Below are positions 16,882 through 27,550 of a DNA stretch of 64,000 nt, in pieces. Position numbers and translations under genes: made by a program. Under the pieces are notes generated by a model. The model did not search any database. It was not told the DNA's origin and was given only the letters and a program-made list of their open reading frames with translations. The stretch spans positions 2,046,001-2,110,000 of the forward strand of contig NC_014377.1 in NCBI RefSeq assembly GCF_000144645.1. Direction: 5' to 3'. Positions within the stretch are counted from its first letter, which is position 1. Each line of letters starts with the position of its first letter. Source of the stretch: Thermosediminibacter oceani DSM 16646. Lineage in GTDB: Bacteria; Bacillota; Thermosediminibacteria; Thermosediminibacterales; Thermosediminibacteraceae.

Positions 16882-18478
16882 TCAGCTTGTAGACAAAGCC
16901 GCTTTTAGGATGCATAACCTAAAAGCGGCTTTTTGTTGAAGGCGAAGAAAATTTTTAAGAAAAACGAATGTAAAGCGGGGACTGTTGGCGGAAACGTTCC
17001 CCGTCTTTTCTTCCATAAAGCCAGCTTTTTTAAATTCATGCATGCGAAAAGAAGCGTGAGGTAATGTCCAACTTTCCTCAAGCCTCGTAGATTTGTATAG
17101 CGCATGCCATGCTTTTCCTTCGCATCGGCAAATACCCGCTCGATGGTCTGGCCGCGCATTTTGTATAGTTCTTTACCCCATTGGGTGTGTCTTATATCTT
17201 CCGCTATTTCTATGTAATGCTCCCATATATGCCGAGTTATGATTTTTGTGTAATTTTTACTTTTGGTGCACTGTAGGCGCATGGGACATTTACAGCATAT
17301 TTGGGGGTTGCTCCTATATTCCCGGTATCCCGCCCGGTTGGTGGTGCTGTATTCTAATATTTGGTTGTTGGGGCATATGTAACAATCATAATATTCGTCA
17401 TAGACGTATTCGCGTTTTTTAAAGTAGCCATCTTTGGTCATCGGCCTCTTGTAGGGCATAACGGGAAGCGCTCCTGCCTCAATGATTTCTCTGCATATCC
17501 CGGGGGTTTTGTAGCCTGCATCAACCACTACCGCCTCTATTTTAGAAAATTTATCGTTTACTTCTTGAAATAAATCGGAGAATACCTGGCTGTCATGAAC
17601 ATTTCCAGGTGCTATTTTGACACCAAGGACAAAGTTGTTCCGGTCACAGGCTACAGAAGCTGTGTAGGCAAAGCAGCGCTCTTTTTCCCCTTTTTGAAAC
17701 ATCCCACTTTCAGGATCTGTGGTGCTTACCCTGACTTTTTTAGAGCTATTTTCTCCTTTGTTGTTATCGTCATCATCATCTTCTTCTTCAAAGGGCTTTT
17801 TACCGTTTGCTTCCCGTTCGGCGTTGATTTCTTTTAAAAGTTCTTCCTTATATTTTTGAGTCCGTTGCTTAGCGACTTTCTCGATATATTTATTCTTATT
17901 GGCACTGGCTTTTATGTGAGTAGCATCGATAAATACTGCATCTGTTTTAACAAACCCGCATTCTATTGCTTCCATCAACACCCGCTCGAATATCTTTTCA
18001 AATAGATCACTTTCCTTAAACCGCCGTTCATAGTTTTTTCCAAAAGTTGAAAAGTGAGGTATTTTTTCTTGTAATCCATAGCCTAAAAACCAACGGTAAG
18101 CTACATTGACTTCTACTTCTCTGATGGTTTGGCGCATGGAGCGGATTCCATACAATGCTTGGAGCATGAGTAGCTTAATTAACACTACCGGGTCAATACT
18201 AGGTCTTCCTGTATTTTCGCTATATAGGTCTTTTACTTCATCATAAATGAAATTAAAGTCGATGCTTTCTTCTACTGCCCTAAGGAGATGGTCTTGAGGT
18301 ACTAAGCTATCGATGCTTACTAATTCTACCTGCTCTATTATTTCTCGATTTTTCTTCGTTAACATTTCATCGCCCCACAATATTTTTGTATCTTCTTTAA
18401 TTTTACTAAAAAGCTGATGATTTTTGTACTAGCTTTTGCAAAAAAAGACTGTCGACAGTTACTTTGTCGACAGTCTGA
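16882..18478 (-). mobile_element. IS1182-type insertion sequence inside the uraA terminator
   Basis: A 1597-bp element. The ends are imperfect inverted repeats: TCAGCTTGTAGACAAAG at the left, and the complement of the right end reads TCAGACTGTCGACAAAG (14 of 17 match). It carries one transposase gene. Each end also has a hairpin with a T-run pointing inward: arms around 16896-16933 with TTTTT on the plus strand, and GACTGTCGA/TCGACAGTC (about 18448-18476) followed by T on the minus strand. The target duplication is the whole 20-bp host stem-loop. Confidence 0.85.
16905..18365 (-). CDS. IS1182-family DDE transposase
   Basis: The 486-residue transposase has the N-terminal DUF772-type domain (RPSIDPVVLIKLLMLQALYGIRS), then a DDE core: VFIDATHIKASANKNK (Asp), VVVDAGYKTPG (Asp), a Cys-rich insertion (CYICPNNQ..CCKCPMRLQC) and ERVFADAKEKHGMRYTNLRG (Glu). 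Start is ATG 18365. A very acidic linker (EEEDDDDDNN) sits between the first two Asp. The last codons overlap the left-end hairpin. It looks intact and could act on the related element at 25630-26335. Confidence 0.92.
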   Translation of the reverse strand: MLTKKNREIIEQVELVSIDSLVPQDHLLRAVEESIDFNFIYDEVKDLYSENTGRPSIDPVVLIKLLMLQALYGIRSMRQTIREVEVNVAYRWFLGYGLQEKIPHFSTFGKNYERRFKESDLFEKIFERVLMEAIECGFVKTDAVFIDATHIKASANKNKYIEKVAKQRTQKYKEELLKEINAEREANGKKPFEEEDDDDDNNKGENSSKKVRVSTTDPESGMFQKGEKERCFAYTASVACDRNNFVLGVKIAPGNVHDSQVFSDLFQEVNDKFSKIEAVVVDAGYKTPGICREIIEAGALPVMPYKRPMTKDGYFKKREYVYDEYYDCYICPNNQILEYSTTNRAGYREYRSNPQICCKCPMRLQCTKSKNYTKIITRHIWEHYIEIAEDIRHTQWGKELYKMRGQTIERVFADAKEKHGMRYTNLRGLRKVGHYLTLLFACMNLKKLALWKKRRGTFPPTVPALHSFFLKIFFAFNKKPLLGYAS

Positions 18479-23196: not shown

Positions 23197-23928
23197 TTAA
23201 CTTAATTGCCTCATGAGTGATTGCCTCATCCGGTAGCTTTGACCATCAAAGATCAATAGGTAACTGTGGTGTATTAGCCGGTCAATCATTGCTGCTGTCA
23301 TCTGCTCATCGTAGAAAATGCTCGCCCAGCGGCTGAATTCCAGGTTAGTGGTAATTACTACACTGCGACGTTCATAGCAGTCCGAAATCACCTGAAAAAG
23401 TAGCTGCGCTCCTTCGCGGTCCAAAGGAACATAGCCCCATTCGTCGCAGATCAGAAGATCTGGTTTGGAAAGCTGTTTCAGTAACCCGGAAAGTTCACCT
23501 CCCTTCCGGGCTTCCACCAGCCGGTTTACCAGCGCTGCAGTGCGGAAAAACTTTACGTTGTAGCCTTTTTTACAGGCCTCCACACCGATGGCGGTGGCAA
23601 GATGGGTTTTGCCGGTTCCCACGTTGCCGTAAAGGATCAGGTTTTTCTTTTCTTCGAGAAATTTGCAATCTTTTAGGTCCTGCGGTGTAAGCCCCTGCGG
23701 GAGTTTGATTTCATCGAATATGTAGCCGGCAAAGGTCTTTATCGTGTAAAAGCCCGCATTTTTCAAAAGCCTGTCCTTTCGGCTTGCGTCTCTGTGCTCC
23801 AGTTCTAATCTTAGCAGCTTCAGCAGGTATTCTTCATGGCTTTGAGCCTCGATCTTGTCGCAGTTTTCCACTAGATTGCGGCTGAGTTTTAATGCTTTAC
23901 AGCAGGCGGCGATTTCGTCCTTCAGCAT
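23197..23928 (-). CDS. istB: IS21 helper ATPase IstB
   Basis: The 243-residue AAA+ ATPase selects target DNA for IstA. It has the N-terminal helical domain (MLKDEIAACCKALKLSRN), Walker A GNVGTGKTHLA near residue 112, Walker B LLICDEWGYVPLD near 165, and sensor 1 VITTN. Its start overlaps the end of istA by 7 bp, as in other IS21 elements where the two are translationally coupled. Confidence 0.95.
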   Translation of the reverse strand: MLKDEIAACCKALKLSRNLVENCDKIEAQSHEEYLLKLLRLELEHRDASRKDRLLKNAGFYTIKTFAGYIFDEIKLPQGLTPQDLKDCKFLEEKKNLILYGNVGTGKTHLATAIGVEACKKGYNVKFFRTAALVNRLVEARKGGELSGLLKQLSKPDLLICDEWGYVPLDREGAQLLFQVISDCYERRSVVITTNLEFSRWASIFYDEQMTAAMIDRLIHHSYLLIFDGQSYRMRQSLMRQLS

Positions 23929-25445
23929 AAATTGGCACCGCCTTTCAGAAAGGCTTTGTCATAGTCTTCTGCATTGAAGCGGAATGCAGTGAGTTCAGGA
24001 ACCCCTTCCGGAATCTTTACCGGCTCCAACTGCGGGGTTATACCCGTTATCCTGTTATGGATGGCTACGAGGCTGTCTAAATCCTGCACTCCGTAAAGGA
24101 GAGCCTCGGCTACAGCGTTCACAGCCTGTTCAAAACTGCTTTTGGTACAAAGCACAGCCAAAGCCTTGAGCGCTTTGCCGCGCTCACTTTTGCTTAAGCC
24201 GTCGAGGTATTCCCGGAGTGGGTCCGGCAGCATGCTGTATATTCCCGAATACTTAAGGGCTCCCGGACAGCGGGAAAGCTGGGTAAGATATGGCAGCCAG
24301 TCCATGCTTTCTTGCTTGTTGTCCCCGTAAAGCCGCCGGTGGCGCACGATTTCCCGGTGGCTCTCATCCAGCGGTATGACCTCATGGGCTGTTATCTTTA
24401 CAAGCACCCGGCTGTTGGCGTATTTGGGGGCGGTAGAGTATAGGTGCTTTCCACCGTTCAAGCTGAATTTGGCGTAGGCGTTGGTTTTGACTGTTATGTA
24501 ACCGGCTACCTCGTAAGGAACGGTAGGCAGCTCAAGCAGAGCCTTACGGTCTTCATTAAAAAGTTCGGCTATGGATGCCTCCTTCCGGTAGTGTTCGCGG
24601 TGCATGTCCCGGTCGCACAATCGTAAAAGTTCGCGGTTAAAATCCTCCAGCTTTTCAAACCTGGGGACCGGGACAAGGAAGTTGCGCCGGTGGTATCCCA
24701 CCTTGTTTTCCACATTACCCTTTTCATGGCCGGAAGCAGGGTTACAGAATACCGCTTCAAAACCATAGTGCTGCTTGAACCTCAGGAAGGCGTCGGTTAG
24801 TTTGCGCTCTCCATTTTTCGAGAGTTTCACGATAGTGCTGGCGTTATCAAACCATAGCTTACGGGGTACTCCCCCCAAGTGTTCAAATATGTCCTTAAGT
24901 CCCTGAAACAGGCATTCCTGGTTTTCTCCCTTGAAAAGCTGGGTATATCCTACGTTACTGTAGGGAAACGACAGGTTCAGATAAAATCCGTGATGCAGCG
25001 TCCCGTTTTCGTAAAAGTCTGCCTCACCGAAATCCACCTGCGCTTCACCCGGGATATGTTCCAGCGGCAGACGACATGAGTTGTCCTGGTACAATTCTTT
25101 TTTTCTCATGGCTACGTAGCCTGCTACGGTGCGGTAAGAACAGTTAAACTTATCTTGGTATTTTTCACAGAGCCTGTCATAAATCCTTTTGGCGGTATGC
25201 CTCTGCTTTTTGCGAGCTTTTTTATCTTCTTCAAGCCACTGATCTATATCCGCCTTGAAAGGGTCGAGTTTTGGGAAGGTATGTTTAACTTCTTCAACTT
25301 TAACCCTGGTGTTCCAGTCTTCTTGATAAATATACTTGCGTATAGTTTTTCGGTCTTTTTGGAATTCCCGGGCTATCTCGCTGATATTTTGCCCTTTCAT
25401 AAAGAACGCTTTTCTGATATTATCAATATGGGTCATTGTGAGCAT
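23922..25445 (-). CDS. istA: IS21 transposase IstA
   Basis: The 507-residue DDE transposase. N-terminal HTH (NISEIAREFQKDRKTIRKYI), second HTH-like segment (TAKRIYDRLCEKYQ..NCSYRTVAGYV), then the rve core with QVDFGEADF (Asp), KLWFDNASTIV (Asp) and GHEKGNVENKVGYHRRN (Glu), and a C-terminal beta region. ATG 25445 lies directly after GGGAGGATTGGAGG; an ATG three codons further in is also possible. It looks functional and could move the decayed copy only if the ends of that copy were still good. Confidence 0.95.
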   Translation of the reverse strand: MLTMTHIDNIRKAFFMKGQNISEIAREFQKDRKTIRKYIYQEDWNTRVKVEEVKHTFPKLDPFKADIDQWLEEDKKARKKQRHTAKRIYDRLCEKYQDKFNCSYRTVAGYVAMRKKELYQDNSCRLPLEHIPGEAQVDFGEADFYENGTLHHGFYLNLSFPYSNVGYTQLFKGENQECLFQGLKDIFEHLGGVPRKLWFDNASTIVKLSKNGERKLTDAFLRFKQHYGFEAVFCNPASGHEKGNVENKVGYHRRNFLVPVPRFEKLEDFNRELLRLCDRDMHREHYRKEASIAELFNEDRKALLELPTVPYEVAGYITVKTNAYAKFSLNGGKHLYSTAPKYANSRVLVKITAHEVIPLDESHREIVRHRRLYGDNKQESMDWLPYLTQLSRCPGALKYSGIYSMLPDPLREYLDGLSKSERGKALKALAVLCTKSSFEQAVNAVAEALLYGVQDLDSLVAIHNRITGITPQLEPVKIPEGVPELTAFRFNAEDYDKAFLKGGANLC

Positions 25446-25608
25446 CCTCCAATCCTCCCTTGCAGTTAAGATTTCCCTAACTACAAGGGTAAAGGTTTTT
25501 AGGGGTGCCTGCAATGACCTTTGCAAATTTGGGGATTTTTGAGTTGCAAAAGTGGGGATTTTATTTTGCAACTCTGTCCATTTTAATTATGCAATAAACA
25601 GAAAAAAA

Positions 25609-25629
25609 GACCATCAAATGAGGATGGTC
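25609..25629. repeat. wecB terminator hairpin duplicated as target site (left copy)
   Basis: 21 bp, GACCATCAAATGAGGATGGTC, a stem-loop with 7-bp perfect arms. The same 21 bp occur at 26336-26356. On the minus strand this copy keeps the T-run (25602-25608) and so is the working half of the original wecB terminator. Confidence 0.9.
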
Positions 25630-25722
25630 TCAGCTTGTAGACAAAACCGCTTTTAGGACGCACTACCTAAAAACGGTTTTTGTTGGAAGCGAAAAATGTA
25701 TTTTGTGAATAGAGTTTTAATG

Positions 25723-25728
25723 TATAAT
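25723..25728 (+). promoter_or_regulatory. -10 element of the passenger gene
   Basis: A perfect TATAAT about 45 bp before the start codon. The -35 region is weak (TTTTGT at 25701-25706). It lies inside the element, so the gene would be expressed wherever the element lands. Confidence 0.45.
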
Positions 25729-25772
25729 GATAGAGAATCTACTTTTTTTAGAATATTAAGAAATGGAGTGGA

Positions 25773-26255
25773 TTGAAAGTGGAAAATAATATTAAAGCAC
25801 TGATAGCACATTTTATTCTTGTAGTGGCCTCTTTCATCCTTCTTCTGATAATTTTTTTTGTAACTGGACAGATAATTTGGAAATATATAATTCATATAGC
25901 AATTAGAGTACCTTTAGCAATAGTGCTGATGCTCTCCTATGTATATGTAGGTACGCTTTTAGATACTAAAATGGATAAAAAATACCACTTTCTTGCAGGG
26001 AGTCTTATTGCGGTTATTGGACTTGGATTATGGTTATACACCTTTTCTATAACCCGCGAAAAAGTAAATATACTACCTGAGGAATTTATAGACGAATACT
26101 GGATACCATTCTATCTTTACTACATGCCAATTCTCATGAGTTGTTTTCTTTTAGGTATACCTTTTCGGTCATTAACTTTCTTTGCGAATTTCATTCCATC
26201 TTTGCTTATAGGTATTGGTCTATCATATAAGAGGTTGAAAATGCAAAGAAAGTAA
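25773..26255 (+). CDS. passenger membrane protein of the IS1182-type mini-element
   Basis: A 160-residue hydrophobic protein with four likely membrane helices: about 10-30 (ALIAHFILVVASFILLLI), 45-62 (RVPLAIVLMLSYVYVGTLL), 74-92 and 118-150. It ends in a positive tail (KRLKMQRK). Start is TTG 25773 with GGAG four bases upstream, or GTG 25779. I do not recognise the family; no resistance or toxin motif is evident. It runs against the strand of its neighbours and is very AT-rich. Being enclosed by transposon ends makes it cargo. Confidence 0.65.
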   Translation: MKVENNIKALIAHFILVVASFILLLIIFFVTGQIIWKYIIHIAIRVPLAIVLMLSYVYVGTLLDTKMDKKYHFLAGSLIAVIGLGLWLYTFSITREKVNILPEEFIDEYWIPFYLYYMPILMSCFLLGIPFRSLTFFANFIPSLLIGIGLSYKRLKMQRK

Positions 26256-26335
26256 AAACAAAGATAATGGATCCCACTTGATCTTGAGGATCATCGAAGA
26301 AAAAACTGCCGACAGCTACTTTGTCGACAGTCTGA

Positions 26336-26356
26336 GACCATCAAATGAGGATGGTC
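26336..26356. repeat. wecB terminator hairpin duplicated as target site (right copy)
   Basis: Identical to 25609-25629. It lies 36 bp downstream of the wecB stop. On the minus strand it is followed by the element end rather than by a T-run. Confidence 0.9.
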
Positions 26357-26392: not shown

Positions 26393-27550
26393 TCACATTT
26401 CAGGCCTGAACTCCTCGGGCCTTTTGTCCGAAAGTCCAAAGTAGTACAGGATACTCTCCACTATCCGCCTGGAGGCGAATCCGTCTCCGTAGGGGTTCAC
26501 CGCATTTGCCATGCGGGCGTATTCGTCTTCATCGCTCAGGAGTACCTCTGCTTCCCTTAGGACGTTCTCCCTCGCTGTGCCTATGACCTTCACGGTGCCC
26601 GCCTTCACCGCCTCGGGCCGCTCGGTCTCGTTTCTCAACACCAACACAGGCTTGCCTAACGAAGGCGCCTCTTCCTGCAGGCCGCCGGAGTCGGTCAAGA
26701 CCATGTAGCACCTGGCCATCAGGTTATGTAGCTCGTCGGTGTCCAGGGGTGACAGAAGTATTATGCGCTCGTGATTTCCCAGGATCTCATGAGCTGTATC
26801 CCAGACTGCAGGATTCAGGTGGACCGGATATACCAGTACCACATCCGGATTCCGGTTAACCACATCCAGAAGGCCGCAGCATATATCTTTTAGGGGCTGT
26901 CCCAGGTTCTCCCTCCTGTGGGCGGTAACAAGGATGACCCGGTTTTTCTTAAAATCAAGGGTGTTCAGGACGGGCTCGTTGAAAACGTAGTCCTTTTTGA
27001 CGGTGGTCTTCAGGGCGTCTATTACCGTATTCCCGGTCACGAAAATGGATTTGGGATCGACGCCTTCCCTTATCAGGTTTTCCCTGGCGGTCATCGTGGG
27101 TGCAAAGTGAAGGTCGGAAAGGGCTCCGGTGAGCTTGCGGTTCATCTCTTCCGGGAAGGGCAGCCACTTATTGTGGGTCCTCAACCCGGCTTCCACGTGT
27201 CCCACCTTTATGTGCATGTAAAAAGAGGCGAGAGCTCCTACAAAGGTGGTGGTCGTATCCCCGTGGACCAGAACCAGGTCGGGCTTCGATTTTTCCAGCA
27301 CTTCCTTTAACCCGATGAGCGCCCTTTGGGTAATGTCAAACAGGGTCTGCCTGTCTTCCATTATATCCAGGTCGTAATCGGGTACTACATCAAAAAGGCT
27401 CAACACCTGGTCGAGCATCTGGCGGTGTTGAGCTGTCACTGCCACTTCGCAGTCTATTAAATTGGTTTTCTTGAGCTCCTGCACCAGAGGGGCCATTTTA
27501 ACAGCCTCGGGTCTGGTGCCGAAGACGGTTAAAGCCTTTATCTTCTTCAA
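26393..27550 (-). CDS. wecB: UDP-N-acetylglucosamine 2-epimerase (non-hydrolysing)
   Basis: The 385-residue enzyme converts UDP-GlcNAc to UDP-ManNAc for wall teichoic acid or other surface polymers. GT-B fold: N-terminal VFGTRPEAVKMAPLVQEL, VHGDTTTTFVGALASFY, VGHVEAGLRTHNKWLPFPEEMNR, and C-terminal VTAHRRENLGQP..LTDSGGLQEEAPSLGKPVLVLRNETERPE. All substrate-binding signatures are present. It is the last gene of the upp-comEB-wecA-wecB run; its terminator holds the mini-element. Confidence 0.95.
   Translation of the reverse strand: MKKIKALTVFGTRPEAVKMAPLVQELKKTNLIDCEVAVTAQHRQMLDQVLSLFDVVPDYDLDIMEDRQTLFDITQRALIGLKEVLEKSKPDLVLVHGDTTTTFVGALASFYMHIKVGHVEAGLRTHNKWLPFPEEMNRKLTGALSDLHFAPTMTARENLIREGVDPKSIFVTGNTVIDALKTTVKKDYVFNEPVLNTLDFKKNRVILVTAHRRENLGQPLKDICCGLLDVVNRNPDVVLVYPVHLNPAVWDTAHEILGNHERIILLSPLDTDELHNLMARCYMVLTDSGGLQEEAPSLGKPVLVLRNETERPEAVKAGTVKVIGTARENVLREAEVLLSDEDEYARMANAVNPYGDGFASRRIVESILYYFGLSDKRPEEFRPEM

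Follow-up and report, generated by a model that had tools for sequence, protein, structure and literature searches.

A 704-bp element in the genome of Thermosediminibacter oceani DSM 16646 is, with a probability that we put at about 0.82, a mobile insertion cassette (MIC) of the IS1182 family, in which a membrane-protein gene and its promoter region lie between IS1182-type ends that have no transposase. It was identified in a stretch of 64,000 nucleotides, here called the window, to which all positions refer unless a genome or locus is named. The ends are of a known IS kind, a transposase gene of its own is absent, the target duplication on its flanks is of the kind made by the helper IS, and the passenger is unrelated to transposition and has homologues in loci without such ends. 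An initial reading of the DNA, the first-pass annotation, had proposed a non-autonomous cargo element with IS1182-type ends, and this proposal is borne out. The passenger matches both a stand-alone gene in a related genome and a broken copy elsewhere in its own genome; the element is therefore best described as a MIC with a captured gene.

The cassette, its ends and its target

The cassette (25631..26334, beginning with CAG and ending with CTG) is 704 bp long; the 706 bp given for it originally include one flanking base per side, its location having been correct. Its left tip, CAGCTTGTAGACAAA, and its inverted right tip, CAGACTGTCGACAAA, each of 15 bp, recur without change in an autonomous IS1182-family element at 16883..18477 on the minus strand (1595 bp, transposase at 16905-18380). 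The transposase of this IS is assigned to the IS1182 family by its match to NF033551 (E 3.3e-139; 464.9 bits against a cut-off of 270). Identical ends of 17 bp had been claimed, but the identity holds for 15 bp, base 16 of the left tip differing between cassette and IS (A for G). Likeness to the IS reaches inward from the left tip at 87% over 68 bp and from the right tip at 92% over 36 bp; blastn of the cassette against the IS returned these two ends only, with no match between 25697 and 26299, and neither this comparison nor the list of open reading frames revealed a transposase gene within 25631-26334.

The left end (25631..25696, 87% identical to the IS) consists of the 15-bp tip and a hairpin at 25646-25677 and retains, on the minus strand, the final codons of the transposase frame (..QKPFLGSAS, as against ..KKPLLGYAS in the IS). 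The right end (26300..26334) has its tip at 26320-26334 and an inward hairpin followed by a T run, an arrangement that is terminator-like on the minus strand. Inward hairpins like those of the IS are thus present in both ends, as had been noted, and beat shuffled sequences in folding (z -4.2 and -3.1, DNA energies), but they are weaker than the corresponding IS hairpins (z -7.6 and -4.8, on the same energies and again against shuffles).

Both flanks carry the direct repeat AGACCATCAAATGAGGATGGTC, identical over 22/22 bp, with its left copy at 25608..25629 and its right copy at 26335..26356. The repeat is a terminator hairpin (AGACCATC..GATGGTC in the left copy), so the hairpin-type target duplication reported earlier is confirmed, with a length of 22 bp instead of 21. 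One extra base, T, completes the hairpin at the left copy; the corresponding base at the right copy is A. Together with an A run on its left, the left copy reads as the minus-strand terminator of the host gene that was targeted, which lies at 26393..27550 on the minus strand and encodes what we take to be a UDP-GlcNAc 2-epimerase of the WecB type. Because one hairpin still stands beside the T run, and because the right end adds an inward hairpin that a scan rated as terminator-like, transcription from the wecB-type gene probably still stops, and the cassette probably leaves termination working. Directly to the left of the cassette lies an IS21-family element (23197-25571).

An empty site, the search for which had been suggested as a check, is seen in a second species of the same genus (G001). 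Its orthologue of the wecB-type gene (91% identical DNA) has downstream, behind an A run, a single uninterrupted hairpin, AGACCATCAAAAAGAATGGTCT, and no element. This hairpin is not identical to the cassette repeat, and the comparison covers the gene-side flank, the far flank falling outside it because the IS21 element abuts the cassette on the left. With one intact hairpin in G001, the cassette is most likely a real insertion and, within the limit of that comparison, one that would postdate the separation of the two species, barring a precise loss in G001. A comparable hairpin was not seen by eye in the compared stretches of other relatives. The membrane gene was nowhere encountered in the same neighbourhood without transposon ends: in three other genomes (G003, G008 and G020), passenger homologues are located on other contigs than the wecB-type gene, and in G001 neither a sequence search nor a profile search detected a passenger homologue.

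Hairpin targets of the resident IS1182 copies

The genome, available as a single contig of 2,280,035 bases, was searched for the tips. The tip pattern, with at most two mismatches, gave 95 matches, as against 12 with a reversed control; 68 of these were paired by hand into 34 elements, and the other 27 stayed unpaired (one with one mismatch, 26 with two). The paired elements comprise 29 full-length copies of the IS, each about 1595 bp long and sharing 98-100% identity with the window copy, four IS copies interrupted by IS21, and the cassette. The interrupted copies (L026, L039, L042 and L054), at 4.04-4.08 kb, were considered as cargo carriers and rejected, being IS copies with nested IS21; their insertion points differ, and the IS21 is the same as that at 23197-25571.

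Some members of the IS1182 family are said by Siguier and colleagues to target palindromes. Here, exact direct repeats flank 32 of the 34 paired elements, and in a further element (L042) the two 22-bp repeats differ at one position. The remaining one (L036) has no repeat and, by eye, different hairpins on its two sides, and it would for that reason fit recombination between two copies. The claim that terminators are targeted and their hairpins duplicated has thus held up, with a duplicated hairpin flanking 33 of the 34 elements. All 33 target repeats, 17-35 bp in length, are hairpins with stems of 6-13 bp, according to a rule that demanded a stem of at least 6 bp, allowed it a single mismatch and let it begin no more than two bases from the outer ends. 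Under the same rule, stems of at least 6 bp occurred in 1.5% of 20,000 random stretches of the same lengths, all drawn from the 64-kb window; with 33/33 on the other side, chance was rejected as the source of these repeats. A terminator-like neighbour, A-rich on the left or T-rich on the right, accompanies 29 of the 33 repeats, a count that comes without a control figure. One genome thus offers 33 natural insertions in which the direct repeat is the target hairpin, and the variation of repeat length with the hairpin fits a cutting site that is set by DNA structure rather than by a constant stagger.

A related IS, 84% identical, is found in a genome of another genus (G012), where exact repeats, palindromic by eye, flank seven of eight elements. 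All eight were rejected as cargo carriers because they are full-length IS copies. Two of them stand in tandem at one site (L084, G012:C1:2060500-2066000) with one hairpin between them, and the second insertion there seems to have used an already duplicated target.

The cassette itself presumably moved in trans. An IS1182-family transposase would have bound its two tips, the 3' ends of which would have been joined to both strands at the 5' feet of the terminator hairpin, probably present as a cruciform; gap repair would then have copied the entire hairpin, leaving one copy on each side. The IS at 16883..18477 is likely the kind of helper involved. For the transposase at 16905-18380 in particular, such a role is no more than plausible, since the resident IS copies show 8-13% difference from the cassette ends, which are about as near to the G012 IS (left, 88% over 69 bp; right, 94-97% over 36 bp), so that a helper of another lineage may have acted. 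As a counterpoint, the cassette is single-copy (one full passenger match and one remnant in its own genome), so that no second transposition of the finished cassette is in view.

The passenger gene and the origin of the cassette

The passenger (25773..26255) is an intact open reading frame on the plus strand, opposite to the IS transposase, and encodes a small membrane protein of 160 aa from TTG 25773 or of 158 aa from GTG 25779, the start that we prefer. The protein is strongly hydrophobic, with four to five hydrophobic segments by hydropathy. In the first-pass annotation it had appeared as a 160-residue, four-helix membrane protein on the other strand; strand and hydrophobicity agree with this description, the length and the number of segments being less definite. 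At 32%, the passenger is lower in GC content than either the IS (40%) or the window (48%). Searches with its sequence in Pfam, NCBIfam, PHROGs, PADLOC and the PDB gave nothing below E 0.02, the family searches found no transposase or recombinase family for it, and its structure model is poor (mean pLDDT 53). Relatives of the passenger were not found among viral contigs, plasmids and phages, and the left-end sequence of the cassette was not found in viral contigs. Upstream of the gene, a -10-like box, TATAAT (25723..25728, plus strand), lies in a 12-base stretch, GTATAATGATAG, that is common to a stand-alone homologue (L067), and the passenger may be expressed from this region. A -10 box of the gene's own had been noted earlier. 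A promoter scan left this box out, yielding three sites where shuffles yield 3.8, and a -35 box to match it was not found.

Passenger homologues occur in four of 149 genomes by single-sequence search and in six of 398 with a small profile, the own genome being included in both counts and two of the genomes found with the profile being distant ones (E ~1e-7). A GTDB scan with two peptide patterns, by which distant homologues can be missed, found five loci: two in a Thermosediminibacteraceae MAG and one each in Tissierella simiarum, a Tissierellia MAG and a Thermoanaerobacterales MAG. IS1182-type tips are absent around the homologues at 12 loci, which partly overlap, are in some cases cut by contig ends and include the remnant in the own genome; the sole match with two mismatches, in L067, falls within a terminator-like T run. 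Some copies are damaged: that of G008 has three stops, one of those in G003 lacks its middle, and that of Tissierella simiarum seems to have a frameshift near its start. The remnant in the own genome, at 1978.5 kb (L002, L118), adjoins a stretch that is 91% identical to a gene, presumably VanZ-like, that also neighbours the G003 copies, and this shared neighbour suggests that the locus is an old resident one.

The stand-alone G003 copy (L067:522-1087) matches the captured segment, 25692..26256 on the plus strand, at 72% in a permissive blastn. In cassette coordinates the match covers positions 62-626 and the IS-like left end covers positions 1-66; the join therefore lies at about 25692-25696, and the promoter region travelled along with the gene. 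By a simple count on these short sequences, dN/dS of the passenger comes to 0.80 and 0.72 for the pair of closest relatives, as compared with about 0.3 for copies that are more distant. The raised values may reflect relaxed constraint or fast change, and the passenger could be degenerating. As a tentative guess, more likely wrong than right, the passenger might be a protective membrane protein of an immunity or resistance type, because its relatives are sporadic, some of them multiple or broken, and because one copy lies near genes that we take to be VanZ-like and cytidine-deaminase-like.

Other cargo elements were sought among the tip matches listed for 398 genomes, 107 of which had a match, with a further search of six genomes; elements beyond the matches listed may have escaped notice there. 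A 2573-bp candidate in G135 was rejected as a cargo element, since it consists of two MITEs flanking a CooS-like gene. Any cargo elements in the draft genome G001 would escape detection, since its 13 reverse tip matches all lie less than 700 bp from the beginning of a contig and its 12 forward matches are all without a partner in the next 5 kb downstream. A 64-bp palindrome in the same draft (L094, G001:C26) joins two left-end sequences of the cassette subtype (94% to the left end of the cassette over 54 bp) and has different hairpins on either side. MITE families with IS1182-type tips are present in G161, G141 and G135 (115-264 bp in 13 loci, many in hairpins), and a 133-bp MITE is present in G003. 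Across these 13 loci and the 2573-bp locus, an exact repeat of at least 17 bp was found at 6/14, and imperfect hairpins were seen by eye on both sides at seven of the remaining eight.

Several other accounts of the cassette may be weighed against movement of a MIC in trans. That the membrane gene is an old resident with unrelated flanking repeats, or with a chance likeness to IS ends, would suit the homologues without such ends at the 12 partly overlapping loci and the remnant elsewhere in the own genome; yet both tips are perfect over 15 bp, inverted and bounded by a direct repeat, and the G001 site is without the gene, which makes this account extremely improbable. A closer rival supposes that a complete IS1182 element landed in the terminator and that the membrane gene took the place of its interior at a later time, the cassette never having moved. 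The repeat and the single G001 hairpin fit this course of events equally well, and it would explain why the cassette is single-copy and why final codons of the transposase frame survive in its left end. It requires, however, an illegitimate swap that ended near both ends, with no IS match by blastn from 25697 to 26299, and we regard it as quite unlikely.

A further proposal is compatible with the MIC reading and concerns how such a cassette could come about, namely that two MITEs, derivatives that have no transposase, inserted in the terminators on either side of a resident gene, and that their outer ends then moved jointly. We consider it a genuine possibility, though a minority one. In its favour, two such MITEs enclose the G135 gene, the distance from tip to tip being 2573 bp, and among the matches listed there are at least 14 tip pairs spanning 173-180 bp in G161 and similar short pairs in G141; against it, the cassette has no inner MITE ends, and the G135 unit has no outer repeat and hence no sign of movement as a unit. 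At that locus (L122, G135:C1:1942800-1945900), the gene, which presumably encodes a CooS-like carbon monoxide dehydrogenase, is preceded and followed by IS1182-type MITEs set in hairpins, and an outer target repeat is absent. The terminator preference offers this group a simple route by which an entire gene might readily be captured along with its promoter. Near-exclusive landing in terminators, with undamaged duplication of the hairpin, would mean that the ends tend to bracket complete promoter-to-terminator units. An unlikely extension would be to see in the IS1182 group a shuttle running from terminator to terminator, by which individual genes are picked up together with their promoters and set down at neutral sites, with the cassette as a finished product and the MITE-bracketed gene of G135 as an intermediate.

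Comparison with known systems

The first-pass annotation knew of no described element of this make-up, and here it has to be corrected. To judge from the available portions of the papers, MICs are a named class, exemplified by MIC231 of Bacillus cereus (PMC3129680, PMC2266710, PMC6542083, PMC3281130), and passenger capture at hairpins and terminators within the IS1182 family has been published for IS1272/TnSha1 (PMC4923244). As described in those portions, MIC231 resembles the cassette in having IS ends, a passenger gene, no transposase gene and presumed movement in trans; its ends are of the IS231/IS4 type, whereas the cassette combines IS1182-type ends with a hairpin target and an orphan membrane protein. 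Transporter IS (tIS) likewise carry a passenger gene but, according to the sections at hand, keep their transposase (PMC3129680), and the combination of transposase and passenger that marks tIS and TnSha1-like elements is not found in 25631-26334. IS1182-type MITEs, so named from their tips (G003, G135, G141, G161), share tips and hairpin targets with the cassette, but those examined, at about 64-410 bp, are too short for such a gene, whereas the cassette carries an intact 160-codon reading frame with homologues in other genomes.

The staphylococcal elements IS1272 and TnSha1/TnSha2 have in common with the cassette the IS1182 family, a hairpin target that is often a terminator, and passenger capture, as far as the accessible text goes (PMC4923244, PMC5678879). 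IS1272 and TnSha1 are there described as sitting in hairpins, several of them terminators, with the hairpin sequence deleted, the passenger having been captured via a false end (PMC4923244). In these accounts the stem-loop is deleted wholly or partly and no repeat is left; in the T. oceani genome, by contrast, the whole hairpin is kept and duplicated, at 33 of 34 elements. TnSha1, moreover, is described as retaining its IS1272, whereas the cassette is without a transposase. In the IS1272 model, as outlined in the excerpted text, the IS uses its 3' ends to attack a cruciform, with the stem-loop lost when attack is at the 3' feet and duplicated when it is at the 5' feet, and this 2017 paper drew the hairpin-duplicating outcome as a possible branch (PMC5678879). 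The elements described here behave as that 5'-feet branch would. Other sources, likewise seen in excerpt, state that movement of IS1182-type elements may or may not involve a passenger and may or may not duplicate the target (PMC12056078), and that IS1182 is one of several families found in excess where convergent genes have their 3' ends facing each other (PMC9208149), an excess that fits terminator targeting.

Among the best-ranked papers, with subscription papers and ISfinder entries outside the scope, neither an IS1182-type MIC nor a genome-wide set of hairpin-duplicating IS1182 elements was found. MICs, passenger capture in the IS1182 family and the targeting of palindromes are, on the evidence of the portions available, already published. 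What is added here, as far as we have seen, is a MIC whose ends are of the IS1182 type and whose passenger is an orphan membrane protein, together with genome-wide duplication of whole hairpins, unlike the deletion known from IS1272. The IS1182 family, of which one member, IS1272, removes the hairpin that it targets, thereby gains a cargo-bearing element that is without a transposase.
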